A stretch of 64,000 nucleotides of DNA, from positions 183,723 through 247,722 of the forward strand of contig JAEUTZ010000017.1 in assembly GCA_016787725.1 (NCBI GenBank), in the 5' to 3' direction. Positions 12,873-16,787 of the stretch are shown here, in pieces (position 1 is the first letter of the stretch; each line of letters begins with the position of its first letter). Source of the DNA: Cyclobacteriaceae bacterium (GTDB lineage: Bacteria; Bacteroidota; Bacteroidia; Cytophagales; Cyclobacteriaceae). A program made the position numbers and the translations under genes. The notes below the pieces were generated by a model. The model saw nothing but the letters and a program-made list of their open reading frames with translations. It was not told the origin of the DNA and did not search any database.

Positions 12873-13016
12873 GAATTATAGCCAGAATAGATTTCAATCT
12901 GGACAATTTGACAATAATATCCTAATCTACCGGATGAGATAAACCAAAGCCCAACGCTAAAAAGTTTCTATGAAGACTGATATACCATTAAAACGAATGT
13001 CTTACCGGTTTCATTG
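12873..13016. other. upstream region of the cyclase gene, left flank of the mini-element
   Basis: Part of the 329-bp gap between the cyclase start and the dinB stop. It is AT-rich and should contain the cyclase promoter on the minus strand; no clear consensus was found. The rest of the gap, 13017-13163, is the REP-bounded mini-element described separately. Confidence 0.4.
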
Positions 13017-13163
13017 CTGTCAGGTCTTACGACCTGACAGTCTCATTATTAAATTTAAAGTAATTCGCATTTTCTTAGTAGGATGGGCCTACGAGGTCGC
13101 ACGTACCATCCCGAATCGGATTGTTTCTTTGTTATTGTCCTGTCGGGTCGAAAGACCCGACAG
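13017..13163 (+). mobile_element. REP-bounded mini-element derived from a RAYT element
   Basis: 147-bp unit bounded by two perfect hairpins. Left: CTGTCAGGTC-TTAC-GACCTGACAG (13017-13040). Right: CTGTCGGGTC-GAAA-GACCCGACAG (13140-13163). Between them is the leader and first 19 or so codons of a RAYT gene (ATG 13083). The full-length element at 16141-16787 has the same order: a TTAC-loop hairpin, a similar leader (TTCTTAGTA just before ATG), a RAYT gene and a GAAA-loop hairpin. The unit is therefore an internal-deletion derivative, comparable to a REPIN or MITE, that might be moved in trans by the intact RAYT. The relation is visible in the sequence; mobility is inference. Confidence 0.8.
13083..13139 (+). 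pseudogene. 5' remnant of a RAYT transposase gene
   Basis: Reading from ATG 13083 gives MGLRGRTYHPESDCFFV, which matches the start of the intact transposase at 16210 (MRLRGRTHYLEADCFFV) at 12 of 17 positions. Similarity stops after this point and the right-hand REP begins a few bases later, so everything from the HUH motif to the catalytic Tyr has been deleted. The ORF itself reads on through the REP but cannot encode a functional protein. Confidence 0.8.
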
Positions 13164-13201
13164 CAAGAGAACCTGACATTTTCATTTTTAACAGGCAGCC
13201 T

Positions 13202-14299
13202 CTAAAACAACTTCAGCTGATCTGTTTCTTGTTCCTGTTTAGAAATGATCACACCTTCAAAGTTGGAAAGGCCAACCCCAAGCAAGCGGATTTTTTTGTC
13301 GGTGAGGTCGGTGCCCGCAAGCAACTGTTTGGCGGCTTCGCTAAGTTCTTCCACCGTGGTCACGGCCTTGTCAAACGAATGACTTCGGGTAATCTGTTTG
13401 AAATCGTGGTACTTGATTTTAAGCGTAACCGTTCTCCCCTTCAGCGACAACCGCTGCAACCGCTTACCTACCACTTCGGAAATGGTTTCGAGGGCTTCAT
13501 TCATTTCTTCCAACGTGGTGAGGTCATGGGCAAAGGTGTCTTCAGCACTGACGGATTTTGTTTCGCGATCGGGTTGCACCGGGCGATTGTCAATGCCGCG
13601 AACAATCTGGTAGAAAAACCGGCCGGATTTTCCGAAGTGTTTCATCAGCTGATGTTCCGATAATTTTTTCAGGTCGGCACCGGTGTGTAAACCCAGGGCA
13701 TTCATTTTCCTGGTTGTTACTTTTCCTACCCCGAAAAACTTTTCGACCGGAAGTTTTTCCATAAACGATTCGATCTGGGAAGGCCCAATGAAGGTTTGTC
13801 CATTGGGCTTCTTCCGGTCGGTGGCGATTTTGGCTACAAACTTATTGATGGAGATACCGGCCGATGCCGTGAGTTGCAGCTCGGTATAAATGGCTTGCCG
13901 GATGCGGGTTGCGATTTCAATAGCCGAACCAATGCCTTGTTTATCTTCGGTAACATCCAAAAAGGCTTCATCCAGTGACAGGGGTTCGATGAGGTCGGTG
14001 TAGCGTTTGAAAATTTCGCGGATGCGTGCTGACACTTCTTTGTAAGCACTGAACCTTGGATAGATAAAAATTACCTCGGGACATAATTGCACTGCTTTTT
14101 TCGAGGGCATGGCCGAGTGTATTCCAAACTTACGGGCTTCATAGCTGGCCGCGGCTACTACCCCGCCCCTGCCCAGCGGGCTGCCACCGACTACAATGGG
14201 CTTGCCTTTGTACTCAGGGTTATCGCGCTGTTCCACAGAGGCATAAAAGGCATCCATGTCTATGTGGATGATTTTGCGAAAGGGTGCAGGTGTTTTCAT
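13202..14299 (-). CDS. dinB: DNA polymerase IV (Y-family)
   Basis: 365-aa translesion DNA polymerase. Catalytic residues are visible: Asp14 in IIHIDMDAFYASVEQ and the Asp110-Glu111 pair in PLSLDEAFLDVT. The fingers and palm (about 8-240), thumb helix-hairpin-helix (PVEKFFGVGKVTTRKMNALG, about 190-215) and little-finger domain (about 245-350) are in order. The C-terminus, EQETDQLKLF, ends in a plausible beta-clamp binding motif of the QLxLF type (DQLKLF). Start ATG at 14299 gives the normal N-terminus. It is a single gene, and REP-type insertions sit on both its sides. An SOS-type operator was not recognised upstream. Confidence 0.96.
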   Translation of the reverse strand: MKTPAPFRKIIHIDMDAFYASVEQRDNPEYKGKPIVVGGSPLGRGGVVAAASYEARKFGIHSAMPSKKAVQLCPEVIFIYPRFSAYKEVSARIREIFKRYTDLIEPLSLDEAFLDVTEDKQGIGSAIEIATRIRQAIYTELQLTASAGISINKFVAKIATDRKKPNGQTFIGPSQIESFMEKLPVEKFFGVGKVTTRKMNALGLHTGADLKKLSEHQLMKHFGKSGRFFYQIVRGIDNRPVQPDRETKSVSAEDTFAHDLTTLEEMNEALETISEVVGKRLQRLSLKGRTVTLKIKYHDFKQITRSHSFDKAVTTVEELSEAAKQLLAGTDLTDKKIRLLGVGLSNFEGVIISKQEQETDQLKLF

Positions 14300-14475
14300 G
14301 CCGGAACAAAGATTGCCAAAATAAAAGCGTGGATTGACACCTGTATGTCAGCAGGATTCCCCTGGGAAGCCAGGTACGTAAATAATGTTCATCGTGAATT
14401 TATTTTACGGAGTTACGCGCAATGGAAATTAAGCTTAGGCAAAAGATAGGCAGACAGGTTGGGGTTTGAGGATTG

Positions 14476-14500
14476 CTTGTTGGTGAAGAACACCAACAAG
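14476..14500. repeat. short intergenic palindromic repeat
   Basis: Perfect 10-bp stem CTTGTTGGTG / CACCAACAAG around loop AAGAA, followed by GGGCGAGG. The motif GTTGGTG-A(n)AA-CACC-ACCA recurs at 19511-19534 and as a half copy at 10179-10198, always in non-coding DNA, suggesting a dispersed repeat family. Confidence 0.65.
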
Positions 14501-14679
14501 GGCGAGGGCACGGCTTGTGGGATTTACTTTATCCTTTCCTGGGCAACCCCGATTTGCTTCCACCCGATTACGATTACTTCTGTTTGACGTATGATTTTAT
14601 CGTGGCTATTTATCTTCTACTGATTAACTACCGACAACAATCAAGGGTCAGGCAAAATCGCAAAGAGCCGCTGGTTACT

Positions 14680-14720
14680 CAGTCAGGTGGAAAGGCCTGA
14701 CTGCAAAGGAGACCCGACAG
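14680..14720. repeat. solitary REP with adjacent half-REP
   Basis: CAGTCAGG / CCTGACTG hairpin (14680-14703) with a GGAAAG-type loop, resembling the right-hand (GAAA-loop) REP of the RAYT element, and followed by CAAAGGA and the lone half arm GACCCGACAG (14711-14720), identical to the right arm of the REP at 13154-13163. No transposase fragment is beside it. Confidence 0.7.
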
Positions 14721-14732
14721 CCACGGGATTGA

Positions 14733-16140: not shown

Positions 16141-16787
16141 CTGTCAGGTCTTACGACCTGACTGTTCTGCCCAGCAAAATTTAACGTAATTCAGATTATT
16201 CTTAGTACGATGCGCTTACGAGGACGGACTCACTATCTTGAAGCGGACTGTTTCTTTGTAACGACTACCTGCTATCAATGGCTCCCCGTGTTGGCAAGCG
16301 ATGATTGTAAAAGGATTGTTTGTGCCAGCATTGATTTCCTCAATGAGAAGTATAAAACTTTTGTCTTGGGATACGTAATTATGCCCAATCATATTCACCT
16401 GATACTTACTTTTCCAAAGGAAAACCGGATTTCTGATTGGATGCGCGATTTAAAGAAATTCACGGCCGTAAAAATCAGGCAGGAAATTGAACGGTTAGGA
16501 AATCTTAGTTTGTTGGAATGTTTGCGTGTGGCTGACAAGAAACAGGTGTTCAAAATCTGGGAAGATCGATTTGATGATGTTATTCTTACAAGCAGTCGCC
16601 TTTTGAATATCAAATTGGATTACATTCATACTAATCCATTACAGGAGCATTGGAATTTAGTAGCCCGACCTGAGGAGTATGAGTTTTCGAGTGCAAGATT
16701 TTATGAATCCGGGGAGCAAGTAAACTGCCGAGTGACTCACTTTAAAGAGTTTTTTTAGAGGTTCTGTCAGGTGGAAACACCTGACAG
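16141..16787 (+). mobile_element. RAYT element with REP ends
   Basis: 647-bp unit: left REP CTGTCAGGTC-TTAC-GACCTGACTG (16141-16164, one mispaired base), leader, RAYT gene (16210-16758) and right REP CTGTCAGGTG-GAAA-CACCTGACAG (16764-16787, perfect 10-bp stem). The two ends differ consistently in loop (TTAC left, GAAA right), the same asymmetry seen in the mini-element at 13017-13163. It lies between the FAD oxidase and a permease gene. Confidence 0.82.
16210..16758 (+). CDS. REP-associated tyrosine transposase (RAYT)
   Basis: 182-aa Y1_Tnp-family HUH nuclease related to IS200/IS605 transposases. The HUH motif is at His61-Ile-His63 (VIMPNHIHLIL) and the nucleophile is probably Tyr138 (LDYIHTNP). 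The opening RLRGRTHYLEADCFFVTTTC is typical. RAYTs cut and join single-stranded DNA at REP hairpins. Here REP hairpins lie 45 bp upstream and 5 bp downstream. All catalytic residues are present and the frame is open, so the enzyme is probably active. It stands as its own mobile unit, unrelated to its neighbours. Confidence 0.93.
   Translation: MRLRGRTHYLEADCFFVTTTCYQWLPVLASDDCKRIVCASIDFLNEKYKTFVLGYVIMPNHIHLILTFPKENRISDWMRDLKKFTAVKIRQEIERLGNLSLLECLRVADKKQVFKIWEDRFDDVILTSSRLLNIKLDYIHTNPLQEHWNLVARPEEYEFSSARFYESGEQVNCRVTHFKEFF

Follow-up and report, generated by a model that had tools for sequence, protein, structure and literature searches.

A REPIN-like miniature enclosing the start of a RAYT gene in a Cyclobacteriaceae genome: a probable internal-deletion derivative with relatives elsewhere in the genus

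A 147-bp miniature at positions 13017 to 13163 of the window (the whole 64,000-nucleotide stretch of Cyclobacteriaceae DNA that was analyzed) is, by its anatomy, a REPIN-like doublet of two REP hairpins, with a portion of a RAYT element between them. Pieces of similar anatomy and with homology to RAYT elements recur in related genomes, and copies lie at unrelated sites. We consider it probable that REP-bounded RAYT elements repeatedly lose their catalytic core and so give rise to REPIN-like non-autonomous elements, of which the window copy would be one. The RAYT would be the mover of these pieces, acting via single strands and in trans.

The coordinates and hairpins given in an earlier model-made account of this DNA, drawn from its letters without database searches (the sequence-only reading), were exact. 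The left hairpin reads CTGTCAGGTC-TTAC-GACCTGACAG (positions 13017 to 13040) and the right hairpin CTGTCGGGTC-GAAA-GACCCGACAG (positions 13140 to 13163), and both 10-bp stems are perfectly paired at 10 of 10 positions, as that reading had described. Folding of the miniature as single-stranded DNA yields both hairpins (z = −6.1), and none of 200 shuffled sequences was equally stable. With the hairpins masked, the leader and open reading frame matched a profile of eight full-length elements with an E value of 2.2e-10, compared to a best match of E 2 in the reversed control; the profile includes the neighboring element described below, and three of its eight members have broken frames as read. 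Retention of the start of a RAYT gene was thereby confirmed, while its extent was revised from the 19 or so codons first proposed to the 17 given by alignment. The remaining spacer showed no similarity to RAYT 3′ ends, as its score was reached by 799 of 1000 shuffles. Features are collected in Table 1.

Table 1. Features of the miniature and its surroundings (positions in the window)
Feature	Position	Strand	Description or basis
Left REP	13015..13040	+	Outward TGC tag at 13015-13017; 10-bp hairpin with TTAC loop at 13017-13040
Leader of RAYT element	13041..13082	+	Left hairpin to start codon, 42 bp; alignment with eight other left ends and hairpin-masked profile match
RAYT gene remnant	13083..13133	+	First 17 codons, MGLRGRTYHPESDCFFV, ATG at 13083; profile and alignment
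Deletion junction	13134..13139	+	Spacer without detected similarity to RAYT 3′ ends
Right REP	13140..13165	+	Inverted relative to left REP; GAAA-loop hairpin at 13140-13163; outward GCA tag at 13163-13165
dinB	13190-14361	-	With upstream region, 95.8% identical to G047
Degenerate right-type REP	14680..14703	+	Followed by half a right hairpin, GACCCGACAGC, at 14711-14721, read by eye
Intact REP-RAYT-REP element	16141..16787	+	647 bp; relative of the miniature, not parent
RAYT gene	16210..16758	+	182 aa; NF047646 REP-associated tyrosine transposase; curated model, Pfam, motifs

The miniature lies between dinB and a cyclase gene. It has two REPs in inverted orientation and a conserved tag on one side of the hairpin foot, as in REPINs; the tag is TGC and not GTAG, and the canonical REP tetranucleotide GT[AG]G is absent from the miniature and from the hairpin tags of the genus. 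REPINs are also characterized by many copies per genome, and the miniature has a single copy in its own 4.21-Mb genome of 27 contigs. The left hairpin is found again at the head of the intact element and a further time by itself, on contig C27; exact REP hairpins in this genome number five in total. In line with a non-autonomous IS200/IS605-like derivative, both ends are kept and the catalytic core is lost.

The intact element 3 kb away has its hairpins in the same order and with the same loops as the miniature (TTAC left, GAAA right), as had been noted from the sequence, and its left stem contains a T-T mismatch that leaves only 8 contiguous pairs. The encoded protein scored 94.6 bits against NF047646 (cutoff 80) and matched both Pfam Y1_Tnp and, weakly (E 0.0018), a TnpA-REP chain of solved structure (4er8); its translation contains the HuH and tyrosine motifs PNHIH and YIHTNP (motif list in the available part of PMC6006769). 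Positions 13017 to 13132 of the miniature match the start of this element at 79% (E 1.5e-20), and the alignment of the two agrees in 92 of 119 columns (77%). Among other repeats of the window, the half hairpin at 14711 to 14721 resembles the truncated end of the G047 miniature described below, and a further hairpin repeat at 14474 to 14507, TTGTTGGTG...CACCAACAA, has two matches also in contig C31 of G047. The miniature's own genome contains two more diverged RAYT genes, L009 (C5:135180) and L008 (C22:161239), at 36 to 38% identity, each of which adjoins copies of its own distinct palindrome (of the GCGCGCGTTTGTAACGCGTGC type and of the CGGAGTC...GACTCCG type, by eye).

The genus was sampled with 63 genome assemblies, including the miniature's own. 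A DNA search of these returned one other long match, in genome G047 (C31:46748-46862), which comprises the same leader, the 17 codons, a few more RAYT bases, and a right hairpin reduced to its 3′ half. The two miniatures are identical at 105 of 114 positions (92%), and three of their five codon differences change the residue. The sequence-only reading had implied the intact element 3 kb away as the parent; this derivation was rejected on identity (92/119, against 105/114 with G047). With 77% identity to the miniature, compared to 92% for the G047 copy, the neighbor is a cousin and not a parent, and the window copy would stem from a RAYT lineage in common with G047. The right junctions differ, with extra RAYT bases and a half-lost hairpin in G047, so neither copy in its present form can have given rise directly to the other. 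Their loci are unrelated, that in G047 being beside a glycogen phosphorylase-like gene (named by eye from its translation). The search for dispersed copies that had been proposed thus succeeded in one respect, with one further close copy at a different locus among the 63 genomes, and failed in another, with a single copy in the miniature's own genome. A complete lack of further copies, or copies always at the same locus, had been named as the mark of a fossil, and the different locus in G047 departs from both.

Hairpins with a GNAA loop were then surveyed by pattern across the 63 genomes, where 118 were found in 20 genomes, and a reversed control pattern gave 0 matches in the same set. When the 113 distinct hairpins were aligned with the TTNC loop on top, a TGC tag at positions −4 to −2 carried 1.2, 1.2, and 0.8 bits (T in 93, G in 95, C in 80, and all three in 64) and none of 12 downstream positions exceeded 0.36 bit, values that are descriptive rather than a test, as the copies are not independent. 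The hairpins of the genus are asymmetric tagged REPs, with TGC replacing GTAG. Further upstream, at −10 and −9, the 113 hairpins share a conserved pyrimidine-rich stretch (0.7 bits each), which may belong to the recognized end.

Neighboring hairpins less than 300 bp apart formed 26 pairs: 18 in left-right inverted order with outward tags, 4 in the opposite order, and 4 in tandem. The excess of the left-right order would correspond to a binomial p of 3e-6 if the pairs were independent, which they are not fully. Exact left-right doublets account for a minority of hairpins (36 of 118), the remainder being single, otherwise clustered, or beside a hairpin missed by the exact pattern. REPs were present in all eight genomes with a close RAYT and in 12 of the 55 others (Fisher p 3e-5); seven of the eight were assigned by protein matches with E values no higher than 9.5e-54 and one (G040) by a RAYT 5′ end at a contig edge, and the RAYT matches in G005 and G056 (41%) were left out of the count. 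Two of the eight close RAYTs, in G034 and G035, have a broken reading frame.

DNA searches of the genus, the hairpin-masked profile search, and reading of loci together revealed derivatives that retain different parts of a RAYT element in 8 of the 63 genomes. They represent at least four separate deletions (window/G047, G034, G013, and the G040 family), or more if those of the window and G047 are separate. In derivative A of G034, the leader and some 8 codons run directly into the final 13 or so codons and the right end, with an early stop in the retained reading frame; derivative B has the same 5′ part, and its right hairpin is gone. In two G013 loci, L143 and L171, the leader is joined to a few bases ahead of the right end. 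Members of the G040 family (in G008, G040, G041, and G045) hold the leader and about the first 17 codons in diverged form, and one G041 copy has lost the start codon.

Similarity of each derivative to the 5′ ends of nine and the 3′ ends of eight RAYT elements was compared to that of 1000 shuffles. The 5′ score was reached by no shuffle for the window, G047, both G034 derivatives, L143, and one G041 copy, by one each for L171 and G008, by two for G045, and by three for G040; the G045 test covered a 201-nt stretch including a second left hairpin, and with the inner doublet by itself the score was reached by 0 of 200. For the remaining G041 copies (201 and 17 of 1000), significance against RAYT itself was absent or marginal, and their place in the family rests on homology with the G040 copy (83% and 81%). 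The 3′ score was reached by no shuffle only for G034 A, compared to 56 of 1000 for L171. Candidate 3′ remnants in two G044 doublets (28 and 941 of 1000) were left out. An apparent middle piece of a RAYT in G013 (L172, E 9e-4) also stands outside the derivative count.

No RAYT sequence stood out in 21 of 26 left-right doublets, in which up to two mismatches per hairpin were allowed. The borderline doublets L151 (5 and 6 of 200), L147 (9), and L207 (3) were set aside in view of the 104 tests performed, and L139, L140, and L142, duplicates of longer stretches, were omitted from the profile search and the doublet test. Two identical 58-bp doublets and a third with one base different (L155, L156, and L153) occur in G059 with differing flanks, and no RAYT sequence was detected in these three. 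The 21 of 26 may be eroded derivatives of greater age or may have another origin, and an origin by RAYT deletion for the REPINs of the genus in general is thus not shown. Among 391 genomes drawn from the family under stricter filters, six matches were obtained outside the genus and no miniature was established: four are ordinary full-length RAYT relatives (46 to 53% identity over residues 1-181 or 1-182), and a RAYT gene was not apparent in the remaining two. A separate pattern was seen at G034 L158 (294-397 and 1126-1791), where a 5′ remnant is followed by an apparent copy of the flank downstream of the full-length RAYT element (0.8 kb away); the arrangement looks like tandem duplication of element and flank with later deletion of one copy.

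Beyond their hairpins, the window and G047 miniatures both continue with CATTG on the left (5 bp) and CA(A)GAGAA on the right (about 8 bp), and then with nothing obvious in common. Homology among one G008 copy and three G041 copies (the latter grouped in 5.3 kb of a single contig) extends as far as the tags. Pairwise scores of their 300-bp flanks were 16 to 23, within the 14 to 28 of shuffled flanks (280 comparisons), apart from one left pair at 41 in which a neighboring REP is shared. Homology that ends at the tags would be predicted for a moving REP-bounded unit. For the G034 B, G040, and G045 copies, which belong to local clusters of repeats, tandem duplication may account for the spread.

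For the miniatures, neither an empty site nor a target duplication or excision product was observed. IS200/IS605 elements are not known to create target duplications, so the absence of one says little. Matches to dinB occurred in 25 other genomes, and at none of 29 dinB loci from these was the cyclase gene adjacent; the flank surveyed was at least about 1.5 kb unless a contig ended sooner. One locus, L072, gave a weak 32% match to part of the cyclase gene. A 6.3-kb search of the genus, in which the first four candidates per genome were scored, placed relatives of dinB, the cyclase, and the oxidoreductase at separate places. A close RAYT was not found at E 1e-30 in the draft assemblies of G047, G008, G041, and G045, and present mobility there is therefore doubtful. 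The window copy is probably immobile or inactive now.

These observations would fit a pathway that starts from the architecture of the clade, a RAYT (HuH/tyrosine transposase) gene between two inverted REPs with GNAA-loop hairpins and an outer TGC tag. Such an element, with its tagged REP borders, would have moved as a unit, now or in the past. Internal deletions, of which that in G034 B may have occurred at a short CTGAC repeat (by eye), would take the catalytic core and spare both ends, as recognition by an IS200/IS605-like enzyme would need. Since the enzyme would recognize the tagged hairpins, derivatives of about 75 to 165 bp would still be movable as REP-bounded units wherever a RAYT is present, and they would then shrink or decay toward a bare doublet; they would be REPINs or nascent REPINs. 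For recognition and movement, this scheme follows work on TnpA-REP, as presented in the available part of PMC8266576. The central claim of the sequence-only reading, an internal-deletion derivative of a REP-RAYT-REP element with both ends kept, is supported, with related miniatures at other loci in relatives; our confidence in the pathway is slightly lowered by the minority share of exact doublets and by the two frame-broken close RAYTs. More tentatively, RAYT elements of the genus may have moved as whole REP-bounded units and REPINs may have been born repeatedly by internal deletion, with the steps still visible, from the full element through a 5′ plus 3′ remnant and a leader-only remnant to the bare doublet.

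It is a serious possibility that the miniature is a fossil in place, left where a full-length RAYT element inserted and lost its core, and that it never moved itself. This account overlaps with the deletion pathway preferred here, which leaves the time of the deletion in the window copy unfixed. It would suit the single copy in the miniature's own genome and the differing breakpoints in the window and G047, which may be separate deletions of related full-length elements. The recurrence of one deletion product at several sites in G008 and G041, in contrast, makes miniatures seem movable, and even a fossil implies that a REP-bounded unit with RAYT sequence has changed place.

Rather than transposing, the pair of miniatures might have traveled with dinB through lateral transfer and homologous recombination, which we regard as unlikely. 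The dinB gene is 96% identical between the window and G047, compared to 66 to 82% for other genus dinB matches among the matches listed, and may have been transferred laterally: in a 29-kb stretch of the G047 contig, matches to the window are confined to dinB, the miniature, and some short pieces. In G047, dinB and the miniature share a contig, and the third-position divergence of dinB (34/366) is near that of the miniatures (9/114). The order nevertheless differs, with 38 bp between miniature and dinB in the window and 6.6 kb, on the other side of dinB, in G047, and the homology of the miniatures ends within 5 to 8 bp of the hairpins.

It is very improbable that the hairpins are mere transcription terminators or RNA-stabilizing structures between dinB and the cyclase gene: the location is intergenic, and one terminator-like match on the + strand at 13016-13041 compares to 0.2 expected, but the RAYT leader and reading frame between the hairpins, the tag, and the inverted pairs in the genus would go unexplained, and any such use of the hairpins may have come later. 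Equally far-fetched is a useful short peptide or regulator encoded by the retained RAYT start, for although the ATG and frame are kept in both the window and G047 miniatures and the retained part stops near the same codon (about 17 to 21) in these and the G040-family derivatives, G034 A has its early stop, a G041 copy lacks the start, and most codon differences between window and G047 alter the residue.

If, as preferred here, RAYT elements with REP borders lose their core time and again, what matters most is the series, which the sequence-only reading had not anticipated: a single genus would hold natural intermediates on the way from RAYT elements to REPINs. The derivatives look like intermediates of that path, made by several separate deletions, and offer natural substrates for testing. 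They support the published idea that REPINs descend from the ends of an IS200-like element, and such a series of leftovers in related bacteria suggests how tiny repeated elements can arise from full-length ones. If the more tentative form of the reading is true, RAYT elements, elsewhere regarded as domesticated and immobile, would have been mobile as whole units in a Bacteroidota genus.

Like MITEs and IS200/IS605 derivatives, the miniature combines internal deletion with retention of both ends. MITE ends are the terminal inverted repeats of a DDE transposase, whereas those of the miniature are tagged hairpins beside a RAYT-type gene, and its movement is putative. With the REPINs of Pseudomonas and E. 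coli, as presented in the available parts of PMC3116915 and PMC8049555, it shares two inverted REPs, a spacer, a tie to a RAYT, and a proposed non-autonomous nature; it differs in a spacer that is recognizable RAYT leader and reading-frame start, in a copy number of one, and in the TGC tag in place of GTAG.

The neighboring RAYT partly resembles subclass 2.6, mostly from Bacteroidetes, as set out in the accessible sections of PMC6006769. Its length of 182 aa compares to a median of 179, its NHIH and YIHTNP are close to NH[LIV]H and YIH[QN]NP, and the flanking hairpins, like those published for the subclass, are without GT[AG]G. It departs from the subclass in YIHTNP and WE rather than YIH[QN]NP and WQ, and in strong, near-perfect palindromes with GNAA loops where the hairpins of subclass 2.6 are termed weaker. 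Deletion derivatives are unmentioned in those sections, and the table legends of PMC3686654 refer to pseudogenized RAYTs with deletions. Among titles and the beginnings of abstracts, in a literature set with few subscription journals, no description of RAYT internal-deletion miniatures was recognized. Finally, in REPtrons and TIRtrons, as here, a RAYT gene is bordered by palindromes or inverted repeats (PMC3733652, available part). Published REPtrons neither transpose as a unit nor self-propagate, according to the portions available of PMC6006769 and PMC3733652; in the genus studied here, by contrast, REP-bounded pieces with RAYT sequence lie at unrelated sites.
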